From Cloeon dipterum (taxonomy: Eukaryota; Arthropoda; Insecta; Ephemeroptera; Baetidae), in contig NC_088789.1 in the NCBI RefSeq assembly GCF_949628265.1, forward strand, positions 32,295,883 to 32,359,882: a DNA stretch of 64,000 bases, given 5' to 3'. Below the pieces are notes generated by a model, which was given only the letters and a program-made list of their open reading frames with translations, was not told the origin of the DNA and ran no database searches. Positions 1,194 through 55,891 of the stretch are shown here, in pieces. A program made the translations under genes and the position numbers. Position 1 is the first letter of the stretch. Each line of letters starts with the position of its first letter.

Positions 1194-2694
1194 ATGTCGT
1201 TGCAAAAGGCGTTGTGCTTGATTTGCGAGCGTCCGACGGCGGACGGCGCTGTCCTTGCTGTCCACGTGGACAAGGAGAAGCTGCAGGAGTGGTTTCTCAA
1301 TGTCTGTGGACACGAGTTGGCCGAGGAAGTCGAGGATCACGACCAGATTTGCTACTTTTGTCTTTGGGACGCCGAGTGAGTTCAAAAGAATTCAGGAATT
1401 CTTCCATTTTTATTTCAGGAATTTATCTAAAGGTTTCTTTGGAAATTCGACGAAATGGCGGACGAGACTTTGGTTTGGTGGCCCAGGAATTCAGATCATT
1501 TGGACGATGCGGCAAATGAGCTGCGAAGGAACTATTTTGGTGAATATGCTTGCCTGGAAAATTAAAGCTTTATTAGTTTAATTTTTTATTTGCATTTTAG
1601 AGGGAAAATTAGAGCAGTGTTGGGTGCAGTTGGAGAAAATTAAACTGCCAGAAAGTGAGAGCAATGATAATAGCAGACCAACTGAAGCCAAAAAACATTC
1701 ACGCCTATGGAACTGCTTCTACTGCAAGATGAAATTTAAACGTTGCATTCAATTGTCCACACATCTGAAGAAAAATCACAAAAAAGCCATCAGATGTGAA
1801 AATCAGAAATGTGCAACTTATTTCCACACTCTTGAAGAAAAAGAAGAGCACAACAAGAACGTCCACGAAAAACCAAAGGAACGAGAAAAAATAAACTGCA
1901 GCTTTTGTGGGAAGGACTATGAGGGATTACAAAACTACAACCATCATATTCGCAGAGTTCACAAAGATTTTCCTGTGAAATGCTTTCATTATGGTTGCAT
2001 TTCATTCTTCAGATCAAAAACGGAAATGGAAACACACTTTGACTCTGCTCACAAAAGTGAACACGAGGATAAAAGATTCGAATGCAACGACTGTGGCTAC
2101 AGAGCAAGGCTTAAATCTTGTTTGAAAAAGCACATCATTAGAAAACATGTACCAAAATCAAGTGAGTGCCACATATGCGGAAAATCTTTTTCCTCTGAGA
2201 GTTTACTGAGATCTCATATCAGGCAATCGCACACTTTCAAAGTTTGTTCATTGTGCAAATTGAGTGTTTCCCTGATGAACCTCAAACGGAGTTCCCACTT
2301 AAGTGTTAAAAATTGCCATCGCTGCAAGAATAAGTTCCAGTGCTCAGGACTCTATCAGTCACATTTGAAATCATGCAAGAAAACTCTGTTGAAGTGTGAC
2401 AAGTGCCAAAAGACATTCACTCAAAGTTATTTGTTGAATTGCCACATGAAAAGAAAGCACAGGACGCGCGGGATTCAGCACAAACAGCTTGGTTTCAAGT
2501 GTGAGCCCTGCAAAAGGTACTTCAAAACTGAAAAAATCTTGAAAGAACATTTGAAAAGAATCCACAGCAACGCCAACTTGAAGTACTGCGCTCACTGCTC
2601 CAAAAATTTCCATGATTTCTCTGCTTTGAAACGCCATCTCGCTGTAAAGCATAACTTTCCATTGTCCGGATTGCAACAAGACACTTCGAAATAA
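1194..2694 (+). CDS. ZAD-like C2H2 zinc-finger protein 1
   Basis: Probable nuclear DNA-binding protein of 460 aa. Three exons fit splice signals and phase: 1194-1375, 1433-1539 and 1601-2694. Exon 1 encodes a small ZAD-like module with LCLIC near its start and ICYFC near its end. Exon 2 carries a Trp-Trp motif (LVWWP) and the DAANELRRNYF helix. Exon 3 opens with QCWVQLE, then has about 11 fingers: fingers 2 and 4 have Cys-x4-Cys spacing and finger 8 ends SHLKSC (Cys2-His-Cys-like). Finger family and order match the paralogues at 20.6, 35.0 and 46-56 kb. The stop at 2692-2694 results from a frameshift; remains of two more fingers lie downstream. ZAD domains are known to mediate dimerisation in insect zinc-finger proteins; that this short version does so is inference. 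The ATG is supported by alignment with the paralogues. Confidence 0.85.
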
Positions 2695-2822
2695 TCATCA
2701 TAAAGATGTTCATGCAAAACAAAGTCCGTGAAAGTTGTGACATTTGTGGAAAATCGATGTTCTTCAGTTGCATGCGAAAACATTTACTGCTAATTCAAGG
2801 CAAAACGTCAGTCCGTCAGTAA
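2663..2822 (+). pseudogene. Frameshifted C-terminal fingers of the preceding gene
   Basis: Directly after the ORF stop, the next frame reads CPDCNKTLRNNHHKDVH (from 2663), a decayed finger 12. A third frame (2706-2822) reads CDICGKSMFFSCMRKH and ends in a stop. The latter matches the terminal finger of the family (CRICGKSCFTRFLKVH in the gene at 46.4 kb), but its last His is replaced by Gln. At least two frame changes therefore truncated this gene. Sequencing error is possible for one of them, but the lost His argues for real decay. Confidence 0.65.
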
Positions 2823-5649: not shown

Positions 5650-6050
5650 CCAGAGTTGTATAAGCCTTTATAGTGTTTGCAGCCTCCAGCAGATGGTGCC
5701 AAAGTATACTTTTGTAATAAATTTAGTTTTAAAGCTCTTTTCGCTGTGATTATTGACTCAATCCTGACACTGTGCATTCTTCACTTATAGTGTTTTCATT
5801 TTAAGAGCTGAAAACCAAAATTGATTGACCCAAATCACCGTTTTTTTAAACTGTAAAATATTTCCCTGCATTTCTACAGCGAATTGCTGGACTGATTTTG
5901 GTTTTCAGCACGTCAAAAGAAAGCATATTAAGTTAAGAACGCACAGTGGCAGGATTGAGTCTGAAATAGCAGTGGAAGTGCCTTAAAATTATTTTTATTA
6001 CGGAAAAATACGGTGGCGCCATCTGTTGGTGGTTTGAGCCTATAAACTGG
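5650..6050. mobile_element. MITE-like foldback element, unit 1 copy
   Basis: About 400 bp starting CCAGAGTTGTATAAGCC and ending GAGCCTATAAACTGG. Inner parts are inverted (CAGATGG...GCC near the left end, GGCGCCATCTG near the right). Related copies sit at the same place in units 2 and 3. It has no coding potential. It looks like a diverged relative of the 427 bp foldback elements at 15788 and 56829. Confidence 0.6.
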
Positions 6051-6314: not shown

Positions 6315-7415
6315 TCATTTGTTTATTTGAACTCCGATGATCATGGATCGAGTTACACGCCTGTTGGATAAGTTGGGATGGTTGTACTTCATGTGCAAAT
6401 CTCTGCAATTTCGAGAGAACCATTTTTGGCAAACGTCGCACTGCTCCATGTGCGCCACTCGCACGTGTTCCACGAGATGCTGTTTGTACCAAAACTTGTT
6501 GCCGCACGTCGCACACCCGAATTTGAACCCGATCAAATCGTGGGCGCTCAAAAGGTGCTCCTTCAAATCTCTGAAACGGCGGAAACTGGCTGAGCAATGC
6601 GCGCAGTGTTTCAAGCAGACCTCCTCCTTCTTCGCAGCCTCGACCTTCGAATGGAATTTCGATCTCAAACTTCTTTTCACGGAACAGGAATCCTTCGAAA
6701 TCGTCGATTTTTGGCACTTTCCGCTTTTGCTTTTCTTCGCGGCTTCAACCTTTGAATGCTGGACGTTGGCGGATCTCGGATTTCTTTTCGCCCGGCCATT
6801 TTCCTGTTCCTTCGTAATCATCGATTTTTGGCACTTTCCTCCTCTGCTTTTCAAGTGACTGTTCAAGCGAAATTTCAATAGAAAGGTTTTGTGGCAAACG
6901 TCACACCTGAACGGAGTTTGTAAGCAATGATCCAGATGCTTTTGATAGCTTCCCAAGCACTTGAACTTCTCTTTGCAACGCTTGCAGTTCTTCTCAAACA
7001 AGTGCCGAGTTCTGTATCTCCTAACAGTCACGTATAATTCGCAAATACTGCACCGCCTCTTAATGACACAATCATACATGTGGTTCGCTATAGCCGTCCT
7101 GGAGCGAAACCATTTCTTGCAAAAATCACATTGGAGATTTTCTGTTCCGTGTTTATAATTGGTGTGTTCTGTCAAATTGCTCTTGGTTTTAAAAGAGGAA
7201 TTGCATGTTCCGCATTTAAATTTTCGGGATTCTTCTTCTGCTCTATGAACAGAGTCAAAGTGGTTTTTCAAGTCTTCGGGTGTTTTGAAGTAACCATAGC
7301 ATCCACGAGCAGAACATTTTTCAGAGTATTCCTTATGGGCACGACCAATGTGTTTTCTGTAATTGTTGGTCTTTATCTTCTCTTCACAAAAGCTGCATTG
7401 CCGCTCTCTAGACAT
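6315..7415 (-). CDS. C2H2 zinc-finger protein, triplet copy 1 (N-terminally truncated)
   Basis: A single open frame of 366 aa from the ATG at 7415 with about nine zinc fingers. Order: QCSFCEEKIKTNNYRKH, EKCSARGCYGYFK (Cys-x4-Cys), several more, and the terminal CDVCQKWFSRNCRDLH. Compared with the copies at 13.2 and 16.4 kb, the upstream part with MCENYYC is lost: one base is inserted near 7471-7476 and the ATG used by the others is destroyed. A three-codon deletion follows MSRER. Between fingers 9 and 11 there is a Lys/Ser-rich linker with two SKVEAAKK copies instead of finger 10. No ZAD exon was found upstream. The protein may still be made, but this is the most degraded copy of the triplet. 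Confidence 0.65.
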   Translation of the reverse strand: MSRERQCSFCEEKIKTNNYRKHIGRAHKEYSEKCSARGCYGYFKTPEDLKNHFDSVHRAEEESRKFKCGTCNSSFKTKSNLTEHTNYKHGTENLQCDFCKKWFRSRTAIANHMYDCVIKRRCSICELYVTVRRYRTRHLFEKNCKRCKEKFKCLGSYQKHLDHCLQTPFRCDVCHKTFLLKFRLNSHLKSRGGKCQKSMITKEQENGRAKRNPRSANVQHSKVEAAKKSKSGKCQKSTISKDSCSVKRSLRSKFHSKVEAAKKEEVCLKHCAHCSASFRRFRDLKEHLLSAHDLIGFKFGCATCGNKFWYKQHLVEHVRVAHMEQCDVCQKWFSRNCRDLHMKYNHPNLSNRRVTRSMIIGVQINK

Positions 7416-8043
7416 ATTTTTCTTTTCTTCAACTCTGTGAAAATAAGAAACACAATAGTAATTTTCACACCTTAACTGCGTATTTGTGTGTCAACCTTAC
7501 ATGTTAATTGGCGTTTAGAATTAAATCCTTTTTCTCATGATATGCAGAGCCGATTTTAGATTTTCAATTTCTCTTAATCTTCTCCTTCTTTTTTCCTTTA
7601 GAAATTTTTCTCCAAGCTTGATTACTAATTAAAATAATAAATATTTCACATAGAAACGTTAAATTTAAAAATTCTTACGTGAATTCACTCTCCTCTGCTG
7701 CCTGATTCACGAAAATCTATAAAATGGCTGGCCTTTCTTTTGATGTATAAAGAAAAATTGTCAATTTTTTAAACATATAATAGAGTGAGAACTTACAAGC
7801 TCAACAAGAATTGGAATTCGGTTCGTCTAATTTCGAGATGTGTGGTCTTCAACCTCCCAATTCCGACACTCGAATGAGAATGAACAAACTGGAAGTATGC
7901 GCTTGGAGATAAAGCAGAAAAAGGGAGAAAAGTAAAAAGAACGGAATTCTTACCCTTCTCTCGCATTTTCAGAATACTTTGTTATATACAGCAGAAAAAT
8001 TCAGAAAATGTTCTTTGTGAATAGAAGCAAAGGATTTTAACGC

Positions 8044-13154: not shown

Positions 13155-14306
13155 TTAATCTCCGATGATCACGGATCGAGTTACACGCCTCTTGAATAAT
13201 TTGGGATGGTTGTACTTCATGTGCAAATCTCTGCAATTTCGAGAGAACCATTTTTGGCAAACGTCGCACTGCTCCATGTGCGCCACTCGCACGTGTTCCA
13301 CGAGATGCTGTTTGTACAAAAACTTGTTGCCGCACGTCGCACACCCGAATTTGAAGCCGATCAAATCGTGGGCGCTCAAAAGGTGCGCCTTCAAATCTCT
13401 GAAACGGCGGAAACTGGCTGAGCAATGCGCGCAGTGTTTCAAGCAGACCTCCTCCTTCTTCGCAGCCTCGACCTTCGAATGGATTTTTGATCTCAAATTT
13501 CTTTTCAAGGAACAGGAATCCTTCGAAATTGTCGATTTTTGGCTCTTTCCTCTCTTGCTTTTCTTCGCGGCTTCAACCTTTGAATGGACGTTGGTGGATC
13601 TCGAATTTATTTTCACCCGGCGATTTTCCTGTTCTTTCAAAAGCTTCGATTTTTGGCACTTTCCTCCTCTGCTTTTCAAGTGTCGATCTAAATCAGATTT
13701 TTTAATGAAGATTCTGAGGCAAACGTCACACTTGAACGGAGTTTGTTTGCAAAGCTTCAGATGCTTTTGATAGTGTCCCGAGCACTTGAACTTCTCTTTG
13801 CAGCGCTGGCAGTTCGTCTCCAACAAGTGCCCATCTCTGTATTTCCGGACAGTCACTTTTGATCTGCAAAATCTACACCGCCTCTTAATGACACAATCAT
13901 ACGTGTGTTTCCTTATGGCCGTCCTGGAGCCAAACCATTTCTTGCAAATATCACATTCAAGATTTTCTGTTCCGTGCTTGATATCGATGTGTTCTGTCAA
14001 ATTGCTCTTGGTTTTAAATGAGGAATTGCATCTTCCGCATTTAAATTTTCGGGATTCTTCTTCTGCTCTATGAACAGAGTCAAAGTGGTTTTTCAACTCT
14101 CCGGGTGTTTTGAAGTAACCATAGCATCCACGAACAGAACATTTTTCAGAGTATTCCTTATGGACATCACCAATGTGTCTTCTGTAATTGTTGGTCTTTA
14201 TCTTCTGTTCACAAAAGCTGCATTGCAATGTTTTCCGCTCCCTAGGCATATTCTTCTTTTCTTCAACTCTGTGAAAATGAGAAACACAATAGTAATTTTC
14301 ACACAT
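13155..14306 (-). CDS. C2H2 zinc-finger protein, triplet copy 2
   Basis: An open frame of 383 aa from the ATG at 14306 (MCENYYC). Upstream, the frame stays open for a few codons reading HVRLTHKNAV, the end of a former finger 1, then meets a stop. Fingers follow the family order: SHFH remnant of finger 2, CSFCEQKI, Cys-x4-Cys CSVRGC, CGRCNSSF, CDICKKWF, a Cys2-Cys finger, CQRCKEKF, CDVCLRIF, then a basic linker with duplicated SKVEAAKK, CAHCSASF, CATCGNKF and the terminal CDVCQKWF. Probable nuclear DNA-binding protein. Copy 3 at 16.4 kb is very similar over the last third. No ZAD exon is visible; spliced leader exons with conserved donors may exist at 14460-14830. Confidence 0.7.
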   Translation of the reverse strand: MCENYYCVSHFHRVEEKKNMPRERKTLQCSFCEQKIKTNNYRRHIGDVHKEYSEKCSVRGCYGYFKTPGELKNHFDSVHRAEEESRKFKCGRCNSSFKTKSNLTEHIDIKHGTENLECDICKKWFGSRTAIRKHTYDCVIKRRCRFCRSKVTVRKYRDGHLLETNCQRCKEKFKCSGHYQKHLKLCKQTPFKCDVCLRIFIKKSDLDRHLKSRGGKCQKSKLLKEQENRRVKINSRSTNVHSKVEAAKKSKRGKSQKSTISKDSCSLKRNLRSKIHSKVEAAKKEEVCLKHCAHCSASFRRFRDLKAHLLSAHDLIGFKFGCATCGNKFLYKQHLVEHVRVAHMEQCDVCQKWFSRNCRDLHMKYNHPKLFKRRVTRSVIIGD

Positions 14307-14861
14307 TACTGCGTTTTTGTGTGTCAATCTTACATGTTAATTAGTGTTTAGAATTAAATCCTTTTTCTTATGATATGCAGAGCCGATTTTAGATTTTTAA
14401 TTTCTCTGAATCTTCTCCTTCTTTTTTCCTTCAGAAATTTTTCTCCAGGCTTGATTACTAATTAAAATAATAAATATTTCACATAGAAACGTTAAATTTA
14501 AAATTTCTTACGCGAATTCACTCTCCTCTGCTGCCTGATTCACGAAAATCTATAAAATGGCTGGCCTTTCTTTTAATCTATAAAGAAAATTTTTTAATTT
14601 TTTAAACATTTAATAGAGTGAAAACTTACAAGCTCAACAAGAACTGGAATTCGGTTCGTTTTATTTCGAGATGTGTGGTCTTCAACCTCCCAATTCCGAC
14701 ACTCGAATGAGAATGAACAAACTGGAAGTATTCGCTTGGAGATAAAGAAGAAAAAGAGAGAAAAATAAAAAGAGCGGAATTCTTACCCTTCTCTCGCATT
14801 TTCAGAATACTTTGTTATATACAGCAGAAAAATTCAGAAAATGTTCTTTGTGAATAGAAGC

Positions 14862-16393: not shown

Positions 16394-17539
16394 TCATTTC
16401 ATGGATCGAGTTACACGCCTGTTGAATAAGTTAGGATGGTTGTACTTCATGTGCAAATTTCTGCAATTTCGAGAGAACCATTTTTGGCAAACGTCGCACT
16501 GCTCCATGTGCGCCACTCGCACGTGTTCCAGCAGATGCTGTTTGTACAAAAACTTGTTGCCGCACGTCGCACACCCGAATTTGAACCCGATCAAATCGTG
16601 GGCGCTCAAAAGGTGCTCCTTCAAATCTCTGAAACGGCGGAAACTGGCTGAGCAATGCGCGCAGTGTTTCAAGCAGACCTCCTCCTTCTTCGCAGCCTCG
16701 ACCTTCGAAAGGATTTTTGATCTCAAATTTCTTTTCAAGGAACAGGTATCCTTCGAAATCGTCGATTTTTGGCTCTTTCCGCTTTTGCTTTTCTTCGCGG
16801 CTTCAACCTTTGAATGCTGGACGTTGGCGGATCTCGGATTTCTTTTCACCCGGCGATTTTCCTGTTCCTTCAAAAGCTTCGATTTTTGGCACTTTCCTCC
16901 TCTGCGTTTCAAGTGTCTGTTCAAGTGACATTTAAACATAAAGGTTTTGTGGCAAACGTCACACCTGAACGGAGTTTGTAAGCAATGATCCAGATGCTCT
17001 TGATAGAGTCCCGAGCACTTGAACTTCTCTTTGCAACGCTGGCAGTTCGTCTCCAACAAATGCCGACTTCTGTATGTCCCAACAGTCACGTCTAATTCAC
17101 AAATTGTGCACCGCCTCTTAATGACACAACGATACATGTGGTTCCTTATAGCCGTCCTGGAGCGAAACCATTTCTTGCAAAAATCACATTCGAGATTTTC
17201 TGTTCCGTGTTTGACACCGATGTGTGTTGTCAACTGGTCCTTGGTTTTAAATGAGAAACTGCATGTTCCGCATTTAAATTTTTTGGATTCTTCTTCTGCT
17301 TTATGGACAGAGTCAAAGTGGATTTTCAAGTCTTCGGGTGTTTTGAAGTAATCATAGCATCCACGACCAGAACATTTTTCAGGGTATTCCTTATGGACCT
17401 TAAGAATGTGTTTTCTGTAATTGTCGGTCGTTATCTTCTGTTCACAAAAGCTGCATTGCAATGTTTTCCGCTCTCTAGACATATTTTGCTTTTCTTCAAC
17501 TCTGTGAAAATGAGAAACACAATAGTAGTTTTCACACAT
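16394..17539 (-). CDS. C2H2 zinc-finger protein, triplet copy 3
   Basis: An open frame of 381 aa starting MCENYYCVSHFHRVEEK at 17539. It has the same finger order as copies 1 and 2: CSFCEQKI, CSGRGC (Cys-x4-Cys), CGTCSFSF, CDFCKKWF, CTICELDV, CQRCKEKF, CDVCHKTF, basic linker with two SKVEAAKK repeats, CAHCSASF, CATCGNKF, CDVCQKWF. Finger 10 of the wider family is missing and replaced by the linker. The protein stops three residues after VTRSMK, slightly earlier than copies 1 and 2. Probable nuclear DNA-binding protein; partner and target unknown. Confidence 0.7.
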   Translation of the reverse strand: MCENYYCVSHFHRVEEKQNMSRERKTLQCSFCEQKITTDNYRKHILKVHKEYPEKCSGRGCYDYFKTPEDLKIHFDSVHKAEEESKKFKCGTCSFSFKTKDQLTTHIGVKHGTENLECDFCKKWFRSRTAIRNHMYRCVIKRRCTICELDVTVGTYRSRHLLETNCQRCKEKFKCSGLYQEHLDHCLQTPFRCDVCHKTFMFKCHLNRHLKRRGGKCQKSKLLKEQENRRVKRNPRSANVQHSKVEAAKKSKSGKSQKSTISKDTCSLKRNLRSKILSKVEAAKKEEVCLKHCAHCSASFRRFRDLKEHLLSAHDLIGFKFGCATCGNKFLYKQHLLEHVRVAHMEQCDVCQKWFSRNCRNLHMKYNHPNLFNRRVTRSMK

Positions 17540-18265
17540 TACTGCTTTTTTGTGTGCTATCGATCTTACATGTTAATTGGCGTTTAGAATTAAATCCTTT
17601 TTCTCATGATATGCAGAGCCGATTTTAGATTTTCACTTTCTCTGAATCTTCTCCTTCTTTTTTCCGTAAGAAATTGTTCTCCAGGGTTGATTACTAATTA
17701 AAATAATAAATATTTTATATAGAAACAAAAAATTTAAAATTTCTTACCCGAATTCACTCTCCTCTGCTGCCTGATTCACGAAAATCTATAAAATGGCTGG
17801 CCTTTCTTTCGGTCTATAAAGAAAATTTTTTAATTTTTTAAACATAATAGAGTGAAAACTTACAAGCTCAACAAGAATTGGAATTCGGTTCGTCTAATTT
17901 CGAGATGTGTGGTCTTCAACCTCCCAATTCCGACACTCGAATGAGAATGAACAAACTGGAAGTATTCACCAGGAGATAAAGCAGAAAAATAGAGAAAAGT
18001 GAAAAGAACGGAATTCTTACCCTTCTCTCGCATTTTCAGAATAATTTTGTTATGAACAGCAGAAAAATTCAGAAAATGTTCTTTGTGAATAGAAGCGAAG
18101 GATTTTATTGCTTTGACATTTTTTTTAAATCATCTATTAAATATTTCTGTAATACTCTTTGTGTTTGCTGTATAAAATAAAAGCAGGGAGAGACGGTTAA
18201 CATTTTGCATAATAAAATAAAACGCGAAGATGAATGAAATTAAGCGAAAAAGCAGTTTTCGGGCT

Positions 18266-20598: not shown

Positions 20599-23500
20599 AT
20601 GTCGTTGCAAAAGGCGCTGTGTTTGATCTGCGAGCGTCCGACGGCGGACGGCGCTGTCTCCGCTGTCCACGTGGACAAAGAAAAACTGCAGAATTGGTTT
20701 CTCAACGTCTGCGAGTACGAAATGGACGAAGAAATCTACGACGACGACCTGATTTGCTACTTTTGCGCCTGGCACGCCGAGTGAGTTAAGGAATTGAAGG
20801 AATCTCCTTTTTTTATTTTAGGAATTTTCCCATATTTAGGTTTCAATGGAAATTCGACGAAATGGCGGACGAGGATTTGGTTTGGTGGAATTTGGATTTG
20901 GACGATGCAGCCAAGGAGCTGCGGAAACATTACTTTGGTAATTTTTTTAAAGTGACTCTAAGAAATTTATTCATTTCTGCCAAATATTTTTCTAAAGGAG
21001 GACAAGTTGAGCAGTGTTGGGTGACATTAGAAAAGGTGAAACTATCTGAAAGTGAACCCAGGTAGCACACAAAGTCACTCAGACATCACTATGATGTCAT
21101 AATTTGACTTTCGTGATATCAGAAAATGACATTTGCAATAAAAACCAAATTAGAAGTGAGAAATAATTTCCAAATAGGTTTTGAGACTCTTTTGTGCTCT
21201 AAAAAGAACGTCCAGTCAGAATTTTTCAAAAAATCAATAATTTTGGAAAATCAATTTCTGACATCTGACTGACATCACTGTGATGTTGGTTTGACATCAC
21301 TATGATGTCAGACACTTGAAAATTGAAAATGGCCTTAAAAGTTCAGAAAATGTATAATTCGCGCACATCCGAGACAATTTTTTGAAAATTTTAATTTTTT
21401 TGGCCCACCTCATTTTCTGACATCTGTGTGACATCACTGTGATGTTTGTCTGACATCACTATGATGTCAGACAGTCCAAAATTAAAACTGGCCTCAAAAG
21501 CTCTAAAAATGAATAATTCGCGCTCATCTGAAACAATTTTTCGAAAATTTTAATTTTCTGGCCCACTCGCAAGCTAAGTACTTGCGATGTGGACTTAGAA
21601 AAATTTGACGCGCGCGGTTTCCCACATTCAAGCGCTCGGCCACCAGGCGGCAGCATCGGCAGCACCGACGATACAGCGAGCTGAGCGATCAAGAGCCAGA
21701 AGTTGCGCGGCCATGTTTGATTGTGCGAACGTTTTGTTTTCAACGGATAGAACATTTTTAGCGCTTTAAAAAGTGACGGTTAGGTCGTGTGGCGTTCCGA
21801 AATTGCAGCAGCTAACAGACTACAGGACATCCTTGCCGTTTAGCACCTGGATTTTGCACCAAGCCGTCACAAAAGGTGAGTTAGGCGTTAGGCGGCTCAA
21901 GCGAATATGTTTTGCAAAGTTGAACACGCTTTTTGGTGTCAAACTTCAAGTTTTGATCGGGCTTTCTTAGAATAACTTCACGTTGAGGAATTTTTATAGT
22001 GCGTGCATTTAATTTTAGGTTAATTTTGAGACTAGCATCGTCATGAGCGGCCCGAGATCTAAACTGATGGTGTCAACTTCTCGTCAACCAACACGTCAAT
22101 CACACTTCCCGGACCCTTTTCAACCTTCAGAAGGACGATCGAGGACCAGGGAGCCTGTCTGTGTCCTGTAACTCAGCATGGACACCTCCGCTTGCCCGAT
22201 TACACATTTTCAACGCAGCCGTGAGTGAAATTTTTCGATTATTTCATACTTTTTTCACTAAATAAGAAGTTTAATGCAGAAAAAATGTATAACTTTTGTC
22301 AATGTTCAAAGGAAGGAATGAAATTGTTTTTTTTTATTTTAAGGCTAAGACTGACAACGTGATGAGCCGCCCGTCATCGAAATTGACGCTGTCCGCCTCC
22401 CTTGTCAACCACTCATCACTCGAGAAGCTTGAATGTCCGGGATTTTTGAGATTGATTCTAACTTATGGGTACGGTAATCAAATTATTTAAATCAGAGCAC
22501 GCCAACAGATGTTTTCAAATAATAAGAATATTTAGAAAATATTTTTTTCTTTATTTTGCAGAGCAAATTTAAATTTTTTTAACTTTTTATTAAAATGTTG
22601 GGAAGCTTAAAGTTTCCTTTATCTAAAAAAATTTGTTTTTGATTGAAATTTCAATATTCCTGATAATTTAAAATTAAAGTTACTATTTATGAGAATAAAA
22701 AAAATTGAACATTTTATTCGATCCCGAACTACTCACGTATCACCCTCAAAAGCATCTTTTGAGATGTAATCGGGCGAAGTGATTTCTGGCAGCCGCGAGT
22801 AAGGTGGCCACTACCCGTAGCTGTGGGCAAGGCGGCCACGACCGTAGTGGTCGACTTTCATGCGGCCACTACCCTAGTAACCAAGCAACGTTGATTGAAC
22901 GTTGAATCAACGTTGAACGTCAACGACGTCAACACAGAATCAACGTTGACGTCAACGTTCAATCAACGTTGAGAATGGTCACTGCGGTGTCGTTGATGCA
23001 ACGTTGACGATCAAATTTCGTCGAAAAAATCGCGGTATACATTATCTCAGCAGATCGCTTTATTTTTACTTAATTCGTGTTTTTTTTATAGTGTCGATCA
23101 CCGAAATTTATATCGTTGTTGACGATCAACAACGCATCAACGTTGCTGCGTTGTTGATGTAAATGAAAATTTTTTTGGGTTCTATTAATTGGAATTTATT
23201 TCTTTAATCAAAGATCACACATTACAAAATGTTCTGGTACATTTCCTATTAAGAATTTATTATATAACGCTCGTCTAGGTGTTATTTGCTTAATTTCACG
23301 ACTGTCTGGAGTGGCTTAAAAAGAGCCAGCTGACAGATTTGCCTGTTCTGTGTTATTTCTTGCGTGGGAGTTCCTGAAATATGACTTGAACTGAACACCT
23401 TTAACAGGTCTTCACCACTCAGTGCCGGACTCTCACTTGGTTCGCTTTCGTGGCCGAGATGCGGCATCCCCGAACTCCGTAATTGTCTTAACCGACAGGG

Positions 23501-35064: not shown

Positions 35065-36325
35065 ATGTCGCTTCAAAAGGCGCTGTGTTTGATTTGCGAG
35101 CGTCCGACGGCGGACGGCGCTGTCCTCGCTGCCCATGTGGACAAGGAGAAACTGCAGGAGTGGTTTCTCAACGTCTGTGGAAACGAGTTGGCCGAGGAAA
35201 TCGAGGACGAGGACAAAATTTGCTACTATTGCGTCTGGCACGCCGAGTGAGTTCTTAAATGGAATTCAAGGAATTTTCTTTTAATTTGGGGCTTTTCCCT
35301 GATGTAGGTTTCAATGGAATTTCGACGAGATGGCGGACGAGGAGAATTTGGTTTGGTGGAATTTGGATTTGGACGAAGCAGCAAGAGAGCTGCGGAAATA
35401 TTATTCTGGTGACAAATCACGCTATATAGTGAAAACTAAATTATTTTGATTTAATATTTTAGAGGGTCAAGTAGAGCAGTGTTGGGTGCAGTTGGAGGAA
35501 ATTGAACTTCCGGAAAGTGACAGCGAGGGAACACAAAATGTTGAAGCTGAAATACTGCCGAGGCGATGGAAATGCATCTACTGTGGGAAAAGATTTAAAT
35601 ATACTGGTGATATGTCAAGACATGTGAAGAAAATGCACGAAGAAGCCATCAGATGTGAAAATCACATATGTGCTACTTATTTCCACACTCTTGAAGAAAA
35701 AGAAGAGCACAAAAAGAATGTCCACGAGAAACCAAAGGAACGAGAAAAATTGAAGTGCAGTTTTTGTGGAAAGGAATTTGATGGACCAAAAAACTACAAC
35801 CAACATGTTCGCCAAGTTCACAAAGATTTTCCTTTAAAATGCTCTCGTCATGGCTGCATTTTATACTTCAAAACAAAAAATGAAATGAAAACTCACTTTG
35901 ATCATGCTCACGGGGAAGATGACGAAGCAAAAAAGTTTCAATGCAATGATTGCGATTACAAAGCAATGCAAAAACCTACTTTGGAAAAGCACATAGCTTG
36001 CAAGCATTTTCCGAAATATTTGAAATGCAAAATGTGTGAAAATATGTTCTCGACTGAATTTAGCCTAAGGAAACATGTTAATCAAGTCCACAAATTCAAG
36101 GTTTGTACACATTGCAAATTGGGTGTCTCTATCAATCGTATGACGAGTCATCACCTGAAAATTACAAAATGCATTCGCTGCAAGAGAAATTTCCAATGCT
36201 CTGGTTTGTACCAAACACACTTGAAATCATGCAGAAAGACGCGATTTAAATGTGACAAGTGCTCAAAATCATTCCACTTTCCTAGCCGTCTGGCTTATCA
36301 CATGAAATTAAAACACAAACGGTGA
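35065..36325 (+). CDS. ZAD-like C2H2 zinc-finger protein 3 (shortened)
   Basis: Three exons: 35065-35246, 35308-35408 and 35463-36325, giving 381 aa with consistent phase. Exon 1 encodes LCLICERPTADGAV...ICYYC; exon 2 FQWNFDEMADEENLVWWN; exon 3 begins GQVEQCWVQLEEIELPE. Nine fingers follow: CIYCGKRF, CENHIC (x4 spacing), CSFCGKEF, CSRHGC (x4), CNDCDYKA, CKMCENMF, CTHCKLGV, CIRCKRNF (Cys2-His-Cys-like) and CDKCSKSF. The protein ends just after finger 9 (LKHKR, stop 36323), where the family normally has four more fingers. No remains of those are seen downstream, so a 3' deletion is likely. Probable nuclear DNA-binding protein. Confidence 0.85.
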
Positions 36326-38744: not shown

Positions 38745-39317
38745 GAAAATCAGGAGACAGTCCAGCGGCCAATCAGAAGCGTCGAAAAAGTGGCGTGCCG
38801 ATCTAATAATTCCATCCATGCGTATTTTGTTACAATTCCGTCAGCCTGATGTGCCATCTTAACGCCAATTACCGGGATAATCAGCTGTTACTAAAGAAAT
38901 TACCAACAAAAATATCAGTCAGCTTAAAAAGTTCGCCGATTTTGAAGCTGCGCAGTAAACTTGTGCGCATCTGAAGCATGCGCAGTATGTTCAGATCGCT
39001 TCTTAATCTCACAGGGAGGCTGAAACTCATCACTGCGCATGCGTGACCCAATTTAAAACCTTCTGCGCAAGCGTAATTCCCACCGGGGACTTAGTTGCGA
39101 TCTGTGTTTGGTTCCCGCCGGATAGAATTCAATATGGCGTTGAAATAATGGAGGCCAATCCAGTCGGCCAATCAGAAGCGTTGAAAAAGAGGCGTGCCGA
39201 CCTAATAATTTCTTTCCCGCGAATTTTGTTACATTTCTATTGGCCTGATTTACCATTTATTGGTCGATTTGCCAATTATCGGGATAATCAGCTGTTAGTA
39301 AAGAAATAACAACAAGA
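38745..39317. mobile_element. CCAAT-box repeat, 1.5 tandem copies, 5' of LINE
   Basis: The segment 38926-39317 is homologous to 19112-19505. Its right third is also present upstream as 38745-38915, each ending AAAGAAAT-x-ACCAACAA-like. Both contain CCAATCAGAAGCG. The repeat continues beyond the LINE at about 41233-41345. Confidence 0.65.
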
Positions 39318-46433: not shown

Positions 46434-49020
46434 CTATTTTACATCGTGTATGTTGAGCATGTGAACCTTGAGGAATCGTGTGAAACACGATTTGCCACAA
46501 ATCCTACATTCAACTCGTTTCATGCTTTTCAAATGCGTTTTCAACTGGTGATACCTTAAGGCATGCTTCGAGCCAAAAGATTTTGGACAATCCGCGCACT
46601 GCAGATTCTTCTCAATCAAATCGTGAACCTTAGCGAGATGATCTTTCAGGTAAGCAAGATGGAAATATTTCCGAGGACAGTGCGCGCAAAACACGTATCT
46701 GCGATTAGTGTGTGTTAAATTTATATGTCTTTCCAGACTAAGATTGGAATCGAAGTAATTTCTGCACAGCTCACACTGGAACCCAAGGTGCTTGTACTTG
46801 CATGCGTGACACCTTTTCATGTGGTATTGCAGTACACTTTGCCACTTGAACTGTTTGTTGCATCCACTACATTTCAGAATCTTATTCTGGTCAGTGCAGT
46901 GTTTCAAGTGTGTCTGATACAAATCTGTAGAGGTAAAGATTTTCCTACAAAATTTACACTTACTCCTACAAGCATGCGCAGCAAATCTATAAACTTTGAC
47001 CTTACAATTGCATTTAGGACAAACTTTAAACACGTGTACAAATATCATATGGATTCTCATAACCGAAATCGTGGCAAACATTTTCTTGCAGATGTCACAC
47101 TCCAAAACTTTTGGCAAATGCTTTTTTTCAATGTGCAACCGCAAGTTTCTGGCCGTACATGTTCTAACTGGGCATTTTTCACATTTGAATGGTTTTCTCT
47201 TCTCAAGCAGGTCTTTGATGATCTTGTGCTCCGATGAATTGTGATTCTTCAACTCGATTTCAGTCTTGAAATACTTCAAACAGCCTTTAAACTCGCATCG
47301 GGCACTGTATTCTGCGTGGTGGTTTTTGACGTGTCTTCGGTAGTTTGAGAGTTCTGTGAATGTCCTCTTGCACAAGGGGATGACACATTCAATTTTTGTC
47401 CTCCGGACTTTTACTTTTTCTGTCCCTAAAAATTTCCAGTCAGGGTGAGCTAGCTTCATGTGTTCCTTCTTCTCTTCTAGAGTGCGAAAATACGTGGCAC
47501 ACTGCTTTAAATCACATCTCATTGCATCTTTATGATTTAGCGTTATGTGTTTTGTCATTTCTTTTACTGATTTTTTGCAATAGATGCATTCTTTTGCCTT
47601 TTGAGTCTCCGGTTCGGACTTTTCGTCATCACTTTGATCGCTGTCTGCATTTTCAGGCAGAGCGATTTTCTCCAACTGGACCCAGCACTGATCCACTTCT
47701 CCCCCTATAACATAAATTTTTGAAATTAAATAAATCAGGTAGTGCAATAAAATCCGGTTTTGCCTCAAGGACGGTAGTTTAACAAAGGTTTGTCATTTTT
47801 TTTATGTTTTTAGATTTGAGCAATAAAATTAGAATTTTACATAAGGATGATAGGTTGACAAAGGGCCTATTTTTAATTTTTTGGAATGACGTCTTTGCCT
47901 GTAATAGAAATATATCTTTTAAAATTATTCTGTCCACGGGAAAAATGATCCTTCCAAATTAAATGAAGCTATATAAGATTGCATGATTCGAAAATTTTGC
48001 AATGCGCAAAAATGCATCCTTGTTTTAGGGCTCTGAAAAAACAACCTGGAAAAACCCCACCAGTGTTTGGTATTTCGCAATTTTCCAAACTTACCCCAAA
48101 AAAGATCAAATTTCGCACCAAAATGGTCCGAAATTTTGGTGTATTACGATATGAATAACTTTTGCTCTTTCGATGAAACCAATATTGTCTTTCACACGGT
48201 TTTCTTAAATCCCCTATTTTTGGCAGAGTTCACAAGTATATTTACCAAGTGGTCTATTGATAAACCACCAAAAAATGTTTGCTGGGTATTTATCAGGAAA
48301 GGGAAATTCTTAGCATAGAGTAAGATAATATGTAGTCGAAAGTGGACCCTTCAGCAAAAATACTTGACATACAACTGGTAAATTCCGCGGCAAATACCAG
48401 GAATAACCGCTGCCTGGGATTGTAAAAATAAATTCCAACCCGTGAATTTCGGTCAGCCATCTTAAGAAGTTTTATCTTTTATAAAAACGTCTTTATATTG
48501 CAGAACACCCGCACATGCATTTTCTAATGCAGTAGGTTTTTCTTGAAACATAAGGTTATTTCAAATTCAAAAACTTTGATCCAAATCAAATCATTTTTGG
48601 GCAAGGATTTAGGACAGAAAAAATAGTCCAGACGGACACCTCTGTAATAAATAGATTTTTACCGAAAAAATTCTTCCTCAGCTCTTTAGTTGCAGCATCC
48701 AAGTTCAGTTTTTTCGGCCACCAAGCCAAAGACTCGTCCACCGCGCAGTCGTGACGTGACATAAATCTGCAATTTCTCCCTTTTTAGAGGAGATTTGTAG
48801 AAAAAAAGGAAAGAAAAACCTACTGGGACTGCCAGATGCAAAAGTAGCAGATCAAATCACTGTCTTTAATCTCTTCGTTCAGCTCGTCTTTACACCCGTG
48901 TGACTCTAAACTCTTCAAGGCCCAATTCCGGAGTTTAACTCTGTCCACTTGGGTGGCCCGGACGGCACCGTCCGCCGTCGGACACTCGCAAAGCCGGCAA
49001 AGCGGCTTCCAAACCGGCAT
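46434..49020 (-). CDS. ZAD-like C2H2 zinc-finger protein 4 (complete 13-finger archetype)
   Basis: 523 aa from three exons (transcript order 49020-48824, 48766-48663, 47704-46434), all phase-consistent. Exon 1: PLCRLCECPTADGAV...LICYFC, ZAD-like. Exon 2: SRHDCAVDESLAWWPKKLNLDAATKELRKNFF (Trp-Trp module). Exon 3: GGEVDQCWVQLEKIALPE, then 13 fingers: CIYCKKSV, CDLKQC (x4), CVIPLC (x4), CEFKGC (x4), CEKCPVRT, CDICKKMF, CPKCNCKV, CKFCRKIF (Cys2-His-Cys-like), CSGCNKQF, CELCRNYF, CAHCPRKY, CADCPKSF and terminal CRICGKSCFTRFLKVH. This is the best reference for the family. Intron 2 (about 960 bp) is longer than in the paralogues. Probable nuclear DNA-binding protein. A CACGTG E-box lies upstream. 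Confidence 0.9.
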
Positions 49021-49079
49021 GCTTGTGGCCAGTGTTGGCTTCCGAATGTGAATGAAAATAACACCCAACAAACTATGAT

Positions 49080-49760: not shown

Positions 49761-50564
49761 TTAGAGTCGTGTGCCGCGTGTGCATTGTTTTAAGTGCGGT
49801 TGATACAATCCTGAACAGGCAAAGTATTTCCTGCAAGATTTACACTTACTCCTAGAAGCATGCTGAGAAAATTCAATAATTTTCACCTTATAATTGCATA
49901 CACGACAGAATTTGTACGTGTGAGTACGTAACATATGACCTCTTATAACCGAAATCGAGGCAAACTTTTTCTTGCAGATGTCACATTCCAAAACTTTTGG
50001 CAAATGAAATTTATCATTGTGCAATTGCAATCTTTTGGCCGTAGATGTTTTGAATGGGCATAATTCGCATTTTAACGGTTTCCTCTTCTCAAGCAGGTCA
50101 TTATTGGCGTTGTGCTCTGAAGAGTTGTGTTTTTTTAATTCGAATTCAGTCTTGAAGTACATCAAACAGCCCTCTTAAACCTGCATCTAGCAGTGTAGTC
50201 TACGTGGTGTTGTTTCACGTGTTTTCGGTAGTTATAAATTTCCGAGTATGTCCTCTCGCACAAGGGGATGGTACATTTAACTTTGTCAGTCCGGATATTT
50301 ACTTTTTTTGTCCTTAAGTAATGACAGTCAGTGTGGGCTTCCTTCATTGTGCTCCTTCTTTTGTGCCGTAGTGTGAAAAAACGTGGAACACCGGTATAAA
50401 TCACACCTTATTGCATCTTTATGCTGTAGCCTAATGTGGTGTCTCATTTCTATCACTGATTTTTTACAATATATACATTTTCTTGTCTTTTGAGTCTCCG
50501 GTTTTGACTTCTCGTCAGCCCTACGATCGCTGCCAGCATTTTCAGCCAGAGTGATTTTCTCCAA
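49761..50564 (-). pseudogene. ZAD-like zinc-finger pseudogene
   Basis: Homologous to exon 3 of the flanking genes but broken. MEKITLAENAGSD...CIYCKKSV...CDLYRC starts at 50564, shifts frame near 50340 to CTIPLCERTYSE...ARCRFKRAV, and shifts again near 50162 to MYFKTEFELKKHNSSEH...CKSCRKYFACSGLYQPH, ending at 49761 after finger 8. The start of exon 3 (QCWVQLE) is replaced, and no ZAD exon was found between it and the next gene upstream. At least two frameshifts plus loss of both ends argue for a dead copy. Confidence 0.85.
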
Positions 50565-51225: not shown

Positions 51226-53790
51226 CTAGCTCAATATAACATCATGTATGTTGATCATGTGTGACTTGAGTAATCGTGTGAAACAAGATATGCCACAAAT
51301 CGTACATTCAACTCGTTCCATGCATTTCAGATGCGTACGCTTCACGTGATACCTTAAGGCATACTTGGTGCAAAAAGATTTTGGACATTCCGCGCACTGC
51401 AGATTCTTCTCAATCAAATCGTGAGCCTTAGCGAGGTGATCTTTCAGGCGAGCAATATGAAAATATTTCCAAGGACAGTGCGCGCAATTCACGTACTTGC
51501 GTTGAACGTGTGCATATTGATCATGTCTCTCCAGACTGAATTTGGATTTAAAGTACTTTCTGCACGGCTCACACTGGAATCCAAGGTGCTTGTACTTGTA
51601 TGCGTGACACCTTTTCATGTGGTATTGCATTAAACTTTGAACCTTGAACTGTTTGTTGCATCCACTACATTTCAGAATCTTCTGGTCAGTGCAGATTTTC
51701 AAGTGTGACTCATACAAACAGGCACATGCAAAGTATTTACGGCAAAATTGACACTTAATCTTAGCAGCCATTCCATTAATTTTGGTTTTACTTTTACATC
51801 CACTACATTTCAGATTCTTATTCTGGTCAATGCATTGTTTCAAGTGTGAATAATACAAACCAGTACAATCAAAGTATTTACTGCAATATTGACACTTAGT
51901 TTTAGCAGCATGCCGAGCCATTCTATAAATTTTGATTTTACGATTACATAACCGACACACTTGGTAAGTGACTGTAGCGTGAGCACCTAACATGTGGGTT
52001 CTCATAACCGAAATCGAGGCAAATTTGTTCTTGCAGATGTCACATTCCAAAACATATGACACATGCTTTTTTGCAGTGTGAATATTCATTTCGACGGCCG
52101 TATCTGCTCTGAACGGACAATGTTCACATTTGATCGGTTTCCTCTTCTCAAGCCGGTATTTGTCGATCTTGTGCTCCAAAGAGTTGTGTTTTTCTAACTC
52201 GATGTATGTCTTGAAATACATCAAACAGCCCTTAAACCTGCATTTCGCAATGTATTCTACGTGGTGTTGTTTGACGTGTTTTCGGTAGTAGTAGGGATTT
52301 GCGTATGTCCTCTTGCACAAGGGGATGGCACATTCCACTGTTCGAGTCGTCGCATTTGCTTTTTCTTTCTTAATGTATTGCTTGTCGGCGTGAGCTTCCT
52401 TCAAGTGTTCCTTCTTCTCTTCTAGAGTGTGAAAAAACGTGGCACACAAGGGAAAATCGCACCTTATTGCATCTTTATGCATAAGCCTTATGTGTTTTGT
52501 CATTTCTTTTACTGATTTTTTGCAATAGACGCATTCATCCCCTATATTATATTGCTGGTCAGCGTGAGCTTCCTTCATGTGTTCCTTCTTCTCTTCTAGA
52601 GTGAGATAAAACTTGGCACACATGGGAAAATCGCACCTTATTGCATCTTTATGCATAAGCCTGATGTGTTTTCTCACATTTGCTAACGATTTTTTGCAAT
52701 ATATGCATTTGTTTGGATCTAGAGTCTCCGGTTCGGACTTTTTGTCAGTCTTTTGATCGCTGTCAGCATTTTCAGGCAGAGTTATTGTCTCCAATTGGAC
52801 CCAGCACTGATCCACTTCTCCTTCTGTAACATTTATTTTTTAACATTTAATAAATAGTTCATTCTGTACCACAATAAATATAGGAGTTGACAAAATGAGG
52901 TTAAGTTAAAAAAAGGTTTTTTTTTCTTTAATAGCTGTTTTATAACTAAAAAAAATTATCAAAGGGAAAAACGTGACCCTCCCACATTAAATTAAGCTTA
53001 CAATTTGTAGTGCAAGACAGTAGGGGTCAGATTCGTGCAACGCGAGAAAACGGTGTCGTAAAAATGCGTGAAAAGAAGCAAGTTTTGGCCAATATTGTGA
53101 CGTAATTTGCATCACTTGTACTAATTGTTTCTTTAGGATCGTAAAACAAACTCTTGACACTCGTACGGCAATCCAAATAGAGCTTTTTACTTCCCACATT
53201 CAGACACCATCTTGGATCTGCGCACTAGGATCCAATTTTATCGCAAATATCTGGCCCCCGCTGTTGCAAAAGAAAGTATGTCTTCCGGCTCTTCGCTTCG
53301 AGCCGTTAAGCACCATCAAACTTCACGTTTGAAAGATTTTCAGCCGGGCAAGAAATTCGACACTAAGCCGTCCCGCCAGCCACCGCTTTAAATTTAAATC
53401 TCGCTGCTAACACCTCAAGTTTAATGTTTACCGAAAAAATTCTTCCTCAGCTCTTTTGCTGCAGCATCCAAGCGTAGTTTTTTCGGCCACCAAGCCAAAG
53501 ACTCGTCCACCGCGCAGTCGTGACGTGACATAAATCTGTAATTTTTCCCTTTACAGAGGAGATTTGTAGAAAAAAAACGAATGAAAAACCTACTGGGACT
53601 GCCAGATGCAATAGTAGCAGATCAAGTCATCGTCTTTAATCTCTTCGTTGAGCTCGTCTTCGCACCCATGTGACTTTATAGCCTTCAAGGCCCAATTCCG
53701 GAGTTTAGCTCTGTCCACTTGGGTGGCTCGGACAGCGCCGTCCGCCGTCGGACACTCGCAAAGCCGGCAGAGCGGCTTCCAAACCGGCAT
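51226..53790 (-). CDS. ZAD-like C2H2 zinc-finger protein 5 (expanded array)
   Basis: 632 aa from exons 53790-53594, 53535-53432 and 52823-51226 (transcript order), phase-consistent. Exon 1: CRLCECPTADGAV...LICYYC; exon 2: SLAWWPKKLRLDAAAKELRKNFF; exon 3: EGEVDQCWVQLETITLPE. About 16-17 fingers. Fingers 1-2 are duplicated in tandem (CIYCKKSLANVRKHIRLMH with CDFPMC, then CVYCKKSVKEMTKHIRLMH with CDFPLC). A second internal duplication repeats the finger 8 region (CQYCSKYF and CQFCRKYF, each followed by LKCSGC). The C-terminal part matches protein 4, with terminal CTICGISCFTRLLKSH. Probable nuclear DNA-binding protein with altered site length compared with its neighbours. Confidence 0.9.
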
Positions 53791-53824
53791 GCTTGTGGCT
53801 TCTGAATGTAAACAAACGGCACAT

Positions 53825-53842
53825 GGAGATCACGCGGGGTAT
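53825..53842 (-). promoter_or_regulatory. E-box-like block upstream of zinc-finger protein 5
   Basis: GATCACGCGGGG at the position matching GATCACGTGGGG upstream of the gene at 55891. One base departs from CACGTG. The wider region (53800-54330) is homologous to 55900-56290, so this is a duplicated promoter. Confidence 0.35.
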
Positions 53843-54339
53843 GGGTGTAAGGAAAGGATGTGAGGTTCTTGACTAAATTACTTGAAGTTAATCACTTTGG
53901 TCTCTTTGGCGATTGCTTATTTTCGAAATTTATCGATACTTTGAATAAATAATAGCAGAGGTTTGGTCCGTGATTCATAAATTCATGCCATAATTTTAAT
54001 ACACTTTAACTCCTAATTGTACACTCTTTTTTTCACCAGAGCAGAGCAAACGACACGATCGATTGGTTAAGCGGGGCGGTAATAGACGTAAAAAGAAAGA
54101 CGCATTCATACTAATCATAGTTTTTTCTCTCATTTCAGACGAAAACTGAAGGTCTTAAGAGCTTGCTTCGAGTTTATAATTCGAATTATCCTATTTACTT
54201 GGAAAACCGGACATGAAAAATTGCAGAATTGTGCTGGTAAATTGCATCATTTTATTTATGGTCTTTTTTAGAAAATGATCATGAAATTTCCAACAAATTT
54301 TCATAACCTATTTTACATACAAGGAATTACTCATTGGAA
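53843..54339. other. intergenic, duplicated upstream region
   Basis: Diverged homologue of 55940-56290 (shared GTAAGGAAAGGATGT, CTTTAACTCCT, GCGGGGCG blocks), consistent with tandem duplication of gene plus promoter. No gene. Confidence 0.55.
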
Positions 54340-55891
54340 TTAACGCCGCTTGTTTTTGCAAAATTGACACTTTCTTGTGTGGCATTGCAGAGTAGTCTTC
54401 TTTTCCAACGGTTTGTTGCACCCGCTGCATTTAATTACGCCGAGGTGTTTACCACGCTTCATGTGTAACTTAAACAAACCTGAACAGGCAAAGTGTTTTC
54501 CGCAAGTTCTACAGTTACTCCCAAAATTATGCTCAGAAATTCTTGCAGCTCTGACCTTACACTTGCATTTGCGACACACTTTGACCGTGTGCTCACCTCT
54601 CATATGGATTTTGATAGCCAAAACTGTGGCAAACATTTTCTTACAGATGTCACACTCCAAAACTTTTGGCAAATGCTTTTTTGCCGCGTGCATTTGCAAG
54701 ATTGTGGACGTACTGGTTCTAAATGGGCAATGGTCACATTTGAACGGTTTTTTCTTCTCAAGCAGCTCTTTGTTGACCTTGTGCTCCGACGAATTGTGAT
54801 TCTTCAACTGGATTTCAGTCTTGAAATACTTCAAACAGCCCTTAAACCCGCATTTGGCAGTGTATTCGGCGTGGATTATTTGGACGTGTCTTCGGTAGTG
54901 CTTGAGTCTCGAGTATGTCCTCTTGCACAAGGGGATGGCACATTCAATTTTGGTCCGCACCTTTACTTTTTCTGTCCCCAAAAATTTCCAGTCAGGGTGA
55001 GCTTGCTTCATGTGGGCCTTCTTCTGTGCCACAGTGTGAAAAAACGTGGAACACTGGTATAAATCACACCTTATTGCATCTTTATGCTGTAGCCTCATGT
55101 GTTTTCTCATATCTGTTACTGATCTTTTACAATAGATGCATTCATCCCCCATTAGATTTTGCTTGTCAGCGTGAGCTTCCTTCAAGTGTTCCTTCTTCTC
55201 TTCTGGACTGAGAAAATACGTGGCACACAGTCGGTGATCGCACCTGATTGCATCTTTATGATATTTAATTATGTGCGCCCTCATGTCTGCCACTGATTTT
55301 TTACAATAGGTGCATTCTTTTGCCTTTCGAGTCTCCGGTTCGGACTTTTCGTGAGCACTTCGGTCGCTTTCAGCATTTTCCGCATTTTCAGGCAGAGTGA
55401 TTTTCTCCAACTGGACCCAGCACTGATCCACTTCTCCTTCTGTAACATATTTGTTTAGTATAATATAATCAGGGTTCACCAATGTGGCAAAAAGAAAAAG
55501 CCTGAAAATAAAATTAAATAAATTGGATTTTTACCGAAAAAATTCTTCCTGAGTTCTTTAGCTGCTGCATCCAAGTACAGTTTTTTCGGCCACCAAGCCA
55601 AAGACTCGTCCACCGCGCAGTCGTGACTTGACATATACCTGTAATTAAGCCCTTTTTAGAGAAGATTTGTTGAAAAAAATATATAAAAACCTACTGGGAC
55701 TGCCAGATGCAAAAGTAGCAGATCAAATCACTGTCTTTAATCTCTTCGTTCAGCTCGTCTTCGCACCCGTGTGACTTTATAGCCTTCAAGGCCCAATTCC
55801 GGAGTTTAATTCTGTCCACGTGGGTGGCCCGGACAGCGCCGTCCGCCACCGGACACTCGCAAAGTCGGCAGAGCGGCTTGCAAATCGGCAT
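54340..55891 (-). CDS. ZAD-like C2H2 zinc-finger protein 6 (C-terminally shortened)
   Basis: 466 aa from exons 55891-55695, 55638-55535 and 55439-54340 (transcript order), phase-consistent. Exon 1: CRLCECPVADGAV...LICYFC; exon 2: SLAWWPKKLYLDAAAKELRKNFF; exon 3: EGEVDQCWVQLEKITLPE. Fingers 1-2 are duplicated as in protein 5 (CTYCKKSV/CDHRLC then CIYCKRSV/CDLYQC), followed by CAIPLC, CGFKGC, CDHCPFRT, CDICKKMF, CRKCKCKV, CRTCGKHF and a degenerate CSGCNKPL. The protein stops after QFCKNKRR, where full members continue into four more fingers, so the end has been lost. The shared finger 1-2 duplication and homologous promoter tie it to protein 5. Probable nuclear DNA-binding protein. Confidence 0.88.

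Follow-up and report, generated by a model that had tools for sequence, protein, structure and literature searches.

Introduction

In insects, ZAD-ZNF proteins (PF07776) join an N-terminal module with four cysteines to an array of C2H2 zinc fingers and have undergone a large expansion, and their ZADs facilitate protein-protein interactions (PMC7655104). The KRAB-ZNF proteins of tetrapods and the FiNZ-ZNF proteins of cyprinid fish form clustered families whose hundreds of members share a conserved N-terminal tag and show positive selection at base contacts; in FiNZ genes, contact enrichment was found in two of the seven clades tested (PMC10547256). The ZF271-like/APEZ genes of Hemiptera are a recent tandem C2H2 expansion with pseudogenes and turnover, and their products have 3-45 tandem repeats, a penta-peptide linker and no non-finger domain (PMC6444547). 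Here we describe a C2H2 zinc-finger gene family of Cloeon dipterum (Ephemeroptera) in a 64,000-nt stretch of contig NC_088789.1 (labelled C4; positions 32295883-32359882), hereafter the window, in which an initial annotation had described nine related loci.

Like the insect ZAD-ZNF proteins, members of this family place a four-cysteine module before a C2H2 array and are greatly expanded, and their C-x2-C...TADG stretch resembles that of L001, a canonical ZAD of the same genome. Unlike them, the family scores below the Pfam cut-off and has an invariant Trp-Trp exon. It also exceeds the fly set (about 91 genes, summed from numbers in PMC7655104) several-fold, and selection falls on its finger contacts, whereas in Drosophila it falls mainly in the linker. 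Clustering, N-terminal tag and base-contact selection are shared with the KRAB- and FiNZ-ZNF families, but the N-terminal module is a different one, the finger order is fixed, irregular fingers are held and linkers of the TGEKP type are absent. The family shares recent tandem expansion, pseudogenes and turnover with the Hemiptera genes, but it combines a ZAD-like module with a fixed, non-repetitive scaffold. We found no earlier description of such a family in the titles and abstract beginnings of the open-licence literature.

Results

The family comprises roughly 500 loci in several chromosomal clusters

We searched the 190-Mb genome (10 contigs, five of them 33-43 Mb) with two motifs, counting sites and not working genes. 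A 29-base exon-1 motif with up to three mismatches gave 480 sites and its reversed control none, well beyond chance; the initial annotation is borne out in treating the window loci as one family. The exon-3 start motif (QCWVQLE, up to two mismatches) gave 539 sites, with one in the control. Among about the first 100 sites listed for each motif, most lie at 1.7-4.85 Mb on C2 and 28.8-32.95 Mb on C4, and for the exon-3 motif at 38.7-39.75 Mb on C1. When the 61-residue exon 1 was used as a protein query, all 150 scored candidates (the best 150 of 564) matched, all on C4; this count is a lower bound that favours close kin. The family thus comprises roughly 500 loci in several chromosomal clusters, and the window lies inside one of them.

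For detailed analysis we used a non-random sample of 61 loci from C4 and C2, from which 11 duplicates had been dropped before counting. It comprises the six window loci, the best C4 protein matches, one further C4 region, chance copies in retrieved stretches and 20 C2 regions, the last chosen by exact match to the exon-1 DNA motif. The finger-exon alignment holds 53 sequences and leaves out L037 and L048 (without a CW/SW start) and one sequence of fewer than 200 residues; some counts below refer to 54 exon-3 proteins and others to these 53 aligned exons. We used the tree, in which the 31.1-kb leaf was translated out of frame, for coarse grouping only. The C1 copies, a minus-strand group and the arrays at 6.3, 13.1 and 16.4 kb of the window each form a single clade at support 1.0; the C2 and C4 copies do not form single clades, with support partly low.

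A separate observation concerns the C4 cluster, where three successive exon-1 matches (28898839-28907692) recur with identical scores about 60.2 kb away (28959059-28967924). Either a segment was duplicated recently or the assembly is at fault here.

DNA-contact positions diversify on a fixed finger scaffold

Complete arrays contain 13 fingers in a fixed order. In the consensus of the 53 aligned exons, fingers 2 and 4 have C-x4-C spacing and the others C-x2-C, and finger 3 is C-x4-C as well in the minus-strand group. C-x4-C lies within ordinary C2H2 spacing. Fingers 7 and 8 form a module of eight ordered ligands, C-x2-C...H...C-x2-C-x(4-6)-C...H-x3-C, in 49 of 54 exon-3 proteins. The C1 copies, by reading, keep fingers 1-9 and continue with a repeated block resembling fingers 5-8.

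The initial annotation had assigned one finger order to all nine loci. What holds of this is the fixed C-x4-C spacing of fingers 2 and 4 and the fixed, Cys-rich C2HC-type pair 7-8. The order departs in the arrays at 6.3, 13.1 and 16.4 kb, which have Met at the first-His position of finger 2 and a linker in place of finger 10, and in the minus-strand group with its C-x4-C finger 3. An additional finger 1-2 pair is present in the 51.2-kb and 54.3-kb genes, with an additional 7-8 module in the 51.2-kb gene only, and arrays end early after finger 11 in the 1.2-kb gene and after finger 9 in the 35.0-kb and 54.3-kb genes.

We took helix positions -1, 2, 3 and 6 as DNA contacts, with the first His as +7, and assigned fingers 2, 4 and 8 to an irregular class by their zinc spacing, following the initial annotation. 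Contacts were the most variable part of the array, with a mean entropy of 2.27 bits compared with 1.60 at other finger positions and 1.66 in linkers; none of 10,000 permutations reached the contact value. Of the nine regular fingers, eight had contact entropies of 1.65-3.59 bits, and finger 9 ranged over 0.84-3.36 bits. Contact entropy was low in finger 2 (0.40-1.40 bits) and finger 8 (0.14-1.81 bits), and finger 4 was mixed, with -1 and 3 conserved and 2 and 6 variable. Among 53 genes, finger 5 shows 51 different contact quadruplets; among 51 genes, finger 8 shows seven.

We then estimated the ratio of nonsynonymous to synonymous substitution rates (dN/dS) by the Nei-Gojobori method in 24 independent gene pairs (synonymous divergence, dS, 0.13-0.42). 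Pooled over these pairs, the contacts of regular fingers had a dN/dS of 1.51 (interval 1.26-1.81), and those of fingers 2, 4 and 8 a dN/dS of 0.48 (0.31-0.78). By helix position, regular fingers gave 1.38 at -1, 0.68 at 1, 1.62 at 2, 1.15 at 3, 0.19 at 4, 0.46 at 5, 1.95 at 6 and 0.00 at the first His. Ratios were 0.65 for finger 7 as a whole, 0.53 for exon 3 as a whole, 0.23 for exon 1 and 0.45 for exon 2, the last from only those 11 of the 24 pairs whose two exons are equally long. A second parser gave 1.40 (1.17-1.71) for regular contacts (Fisher p 1.6e-11 relative to the remaining finger codons). The excess was present in the C2 pairs (n = 9; 1.45, 1.15-1.88), in the C4 pairs (n = 15; 1.36, 1.05-1.85) and in the 12 pairs in which both genes are full-length (1.49, 1.23-1.88). 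The DNA-contact positions of most fingers are under positive selection on a fixed scaffold.

Several details weigh against this reading. The lower bound exceeds 1 only in fingers 1, 5 and 13, with fingers 6 and 12 unremarkable (1.19 and 0.84), and by position only at 2 and 6 (lower bounds 0.86 at -1 and 0.69 at 3). Elevated values also appear outside the classical contacts, at positions 8 and 10 (1.11 and 1.42). Two C1 pairs gave 1.66 at contacts, which is not significant (p 0.20), and 1.10 at irregular contacts; in C4 pairs the upper bound for irregular contacts is 1.11. Finger 2 alone has a ratio of 1.18 with a wide interval (0.58-4.56), owing to the scarcity of synonymous changes in this finger. 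With only 12 regular contact codons for each pair, the divergent window arrays at 6.3, 13.1 and 16.4 kb are uninformative.

These data bear on what the arrays bind. The initial annotation had suggested for the irregular fingers structural roles other than DNA reading, such as protein or RNA contacts. That these fingers do not vary as DNA readers agrees with the low contact entropy of fingers 2 and 8 and the pooled ratio of 0.48, and is qualified by the half-conserved finger 4, by finger 2 taken alone and by the ordinary spacing of C-x4-C; positive selection at the contacts of most fingers, which makes DNA reading the chief feature, and the genome-wide scale of the family had been missed. If the arrays bound RNA or protein, the variable helix positions would be surfaces for these contacts, and the irregular fingers would be held as observed. 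The TGEKP-type linker is found in 0 of 54 exon-3 proteins, and zf-met and zf-C2H2_jaz are matched, in one array with two matches above cut-off, which also speaks for such binding. We consider it improbable, however, as selection is highest at 2 and 6, followed by -1 and 3, which together make up the base-reading positions, with low values at 1, 4 and 5. The best Pfam match is zf-C2H2 in two of three scanned arrays and zf-C2H2_4 in the third (zf-C2H2 expectation values (E) 1.3e-16, 2e-21 and 2.1e-6). An AlphaFold2 model of a 417-residue array (predicted local distance difference test, pLDDT, 64.7; predicted template modelling score, pTM, 0.24), with values below 50 over a large part of the finger-8 region, was too weak to pair the ligands of fingers 7 and 8.

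Many copies are truncated, yet the family is probably not decaying neutrally

Among the 61 loci, the finger exon exceeds 340 residues in 34, is shorter in 22 and is missing from the stretch in five, some being cut by the stretch end. The many truncated or frameshifted loci count against the reading of diversified DNA-binding proteins discussed below. Stops or frameshifts in several loci, the inverted-repeat element that splits one window gene (see below) and the repeated run of three exon-1 matches would all suit a graveyard of recent tandem duplicates and pseudogenes from segmental duplication, with few working genes. Neutral decay would not yield a dN/dS of 0.01 at zinc ligands (from an earlier, since superseded pairing), 0.00 at the first His and 0.23 in exon 1, and the contact signal persists in full-length pairs, so that a mere graveyard appears very improbable. 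Common end points after finger 8 (L013, L022, L034, L038, L062 and L065) and after finger 9 (the window 35.0-kb gene, L015 and L061) may mark real classes of short arrays. Interruptions within an otherwise continuing array were seen in L019, L021, L025, L026, L033, L035 and L057, among others.

A ZAD-like module and a Trp-Trp exon precede the fingers

We identified exon 1, a short phase-2 intron and the Trp-Trp exon by a single splice rule in 55 of the 61 loci. Exon 1 ends with the first two bases of a codon, a GT donor follows, and exon 2 completes the codon and goes on with F or Y. Intron 1 measures about 55 bp in the six window genes. Exon 2 holds Trp-Trp and D-A-A-x-E-L-R-K or near variants, with an odd end in L049. 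Intron 2, read in the window genes, is in phase 1 and leads into QCWVQLE, the start of the finger exon. In the C1 stretch three copies have, by reading, exons 1, 2 and 3 with fingers 1-9, one of them cut by the stretch end. Because splice sites and phase are conserved, the exon pairing is supported, as a prediction from genomic DNA. Both the exon pairing and the conserved WW/DAA-x-ELRK exon proposed by the initial annotation are thus upheld at this level, as are its six window loci with a ZAD-like exon and a separate Trp-Trp exon, all of which we located with their GT donors.

The relation to canonical ZADs is less clear-cut. The two Cys pairs of the module are 41 residues apart in 58 of 61 loci and 46 in three, compared with 40, 40, 42, 42, 42 and 53 in six canonical ZADs of the same genome; the earlier description of the module as shorter than canonical therefore fails. 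A further Cys lies between the pairs in 60 of 61 modules. By profile search of exons 1-2, the best score to zf-AD (PF07776) was 18.2 bits (E 0.003), below the curated cut-off of 28 bits. With E<=1 among 18 members, zf-AD matched five and Cys_rich_CPCC six; a sub-threshold zf-AD match appeared in two of four longer constructs and in neither of two C1 members. Alignment to ZAD with hhalign scored 23.9, whereas 40 shuffles keeping the Cys columns reached at most 17.3, but with a probability of only 30-32% over 13-21 columns by default and 53 columns with a relaxed setting. ZAD was absent among the PDB profile matches of the module. An identification as ZAD by Pfam or PDB profile was accordingly rejected, and so were Cys_rich_CPCC, NDUFB10, DUF3069 and zf-HC5HC2H for exons 1-2, which scored below cut-off where bits were shown and were inconsistent between members. 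The Trp-Trp exon had no match of its own above the Pfam cut-off and none in PDB profile searches. AlphaFold2 of exon 1 alone (pLDDT 57.5, pTM 0.34) was too weak to use. Taken together, sequence comparison lends modest support to ZAD homology, and we term the module ZAD-like and not ZAD.

The genome has 16 zf-AD matches. One of them, the canonical ZAD L004 (C1:39621972-39622178), scores 48.7 bits against zf-AD. It is surrounded by the C1 cluster of the family described here and is a possible link to the family's origin.

We found no support for gene conversion homogenising exon 1, as exons 1 and 3 of the same pairs have similar dS (0.293 and 0.276). In exon 1, codons 11-20 (window 1224-1253) show a synonymous-codon identity between subfamilies of 0.82-0.90, compared with 0.34-0.79 elsewhere in exon 1. 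This near fixation hints at a common DNA or RNA element, and an overlapping frame in these codons was also considered. A few exon-3 windows, however, equal this identity, and the C2 loci had been chosen by that motif, so that we simply note it here.

Gene copies in the window

The window contains six ZAD-like genes and three divergent arrays, which add up to the nine loci of the initial annotation, the 31.1-kb array being counted with the 20.6-kb gene (Table 1). The ZAD-like first exons start at 1194 (+), 20599 (+), 35065 (+), 49020 (-), 53790 (-) and 55891 (-), and each gene has a Trp-Trp exon with a GT donor.

Table 1. Gene parts and other features located in the window (window coordinates).
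Feature	Position	Strand	Remarks
Gene 1 exon 1	1194..1375	+	ZAD-like (C-x2-C ... C-x2-C); donor GTGAGT, phase 2
Gene 1 exon 2	1433..1539	+	Trp-Trp / DDAA-ELRR
Gene 1 exon 3	1601..2694	+	CWVQLE and fingers 1-11, out of frame afterwards
Divergent-subfamily array	6315..7490	-	ZAD/WW exons not detected
Divergent-subfamily array	13155..14336	-	ZAD/WW exons not detected
Divergent-subfamily array	16394..17572	-	ZAD/WW exons not detected
Gene 2 exon 1	20599..20780	+	ZAD-like
Gene 2 exon 2	20840..20937	+	Trp-Trp
Gene 2 exon 3, first piece	20998..21056	+	VEQCWVTLEKVKLSESE
Inverted-repeat element within gene 2	21057..31144	.	10,088 bp
Gene 2 exon 3, second piece	31145..32307	+	carries the fingers
Gene 3 exon 1	35065..35246	+	ZAD-like
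Gene 3 exon 2	35308..35408	+	Trp-Trp
Gene 3 exon 3	35463..36325	+	fingers 1-9; end point common to L015 and L061
Gene 4 exon 3	46434..47702	-	13 fingers, open to end; 5' edge approximate
Gene 4 exon 2	48663..48766	-	Trp-Trp
Gene 4 exon 1	48824..49020	-	ZAD-like; 5-codon insert
Finger-exon fragment	49761..50174	-	fingers 4-8 (by reading)
Gene 5 exon 3	51226..52824	-	additional finger 1-2 and 7-8 copies; 5' edge approximate
Gene 5 exon 2	53432..53535	-	Trp-Trp
Gene 5 exon 1	53594..53790	-	ZAD-like
Gene 6 exon 3	54340..55440	-	fingers 1-9, additional finger 1-2 copy, truncated; 5' edge approximate
Gene 6 exon 2	55535..55638	-	Trp-Trp
Gene 6 exon 1	55695..55891	-	ZAD-like

The finger exon of gene 2 is interrupted after SESE and resumes in frame in the 31.1-kb array. 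Because an inverted-repeat element sits between the 20.6-kb and 31.1-kb loci and its flanks read in frame across it, the two loci belong to a single gene whose exon 3 is split. The element ends are 45 nt long, with inverted repeats matching at 40 of 45 positions and AA on both flanks. A search of the genome with the end motif gave 20 sites, and none for the control; 16 of the 20 form eight facing pairs separated by 2.4-10 kb. The longest open frames inside the element are short or are GC-rich repeat frames.

A motif scan of the window did not find ZAD, WW or CWVQL motifs with the arrays at 6.3, 13.1 and 16.4 kb. Their whole-array dN/dS values (0.81, 1.56 and 0.85, with few changes) fit weak constraint.

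Elsewhere in the window, a 599-residue open frame at 39288-41087 (+) resembles, by eye, the reverse transcriptase of a non-LTR retrotransposon, and open frames at 61789-63983 (-) resemble exons of a long coiled-coil protein. The canonical ZAD match L003 lies about 9 kb past the window end.

Discussion

We consider it probable that these roughly 500 loci form a family of sequence-specific DNA-binding proteins whose contacts have diversified, with a likeliest use against selfish DNA. The N-terminal module would pair the proteins and/or recruit a common partner, as ZADs do. The held fingers (2, 8, partly 4, and the 7-8 pair) would keep the shape of the array or make an invariant contact, and the diversified fingers would give each copy its own DNA target. 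The likeliest use would be to recognise and silence changing repetitive or selfish DNA, because the KRAB- and FiNZ-zinc-finger families show this pattern of duplication with subsequent change of target. This is the least certain step, and taken alone we judge such silencing somewhat less likely than not.

Two features of the Drosophila ZAD-ZNF proteins, as reported in PMC7655104 and PMC10547256, weigh against a use of this kind: selection falls mostly in the linker, with three genes showing it in the finger domain, and the proteins apparently do not target transposons. The same sources report that they organise heterochromatin. Together with the conservation of the ZAD-like module, this would favour ordinary regulatory or chromatin-architecture roles, in which the contacts diversified as duplicates took on new functions, free of any conflict with selfish DNA. 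We regard such roles as somewhat unlikely to account for the family, since about 500 loci with contact dN/dS above 1 in two clusters seem beyond the need of a stable regulatory set, and the family size resembles that of the zebrafish FiNZ-ZNFs, about 700 (PMC10547256).

Following the reading of diversified DNA-binding proteins one step further, we tentatively suggest that an arthropod may have independently evolved a genome-defence repertoire on the scale of the KRAB-ZNF genes (about 500 loci in 190 Mb). Its proteins would carry a divergent ZAD-like and Trp-Trp module, and the array would rarely be shuffled; a held scaffold of irregular fingers would keep the frame while only contact residues in the other fingers are replaced, like complementarity-determining regions on an antibody framework.

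In conclusion, this ZAD-like family of several hundred loci carries the contact-residue signature of vertebrate arms-race families, unlike what was reported for the fly ZAD-ZNFs. A single array separates fingers that change what they read from fingers that do not vary, and the family makes a zinc-finger arms race against selfish DNA in an arthropod directly testable.

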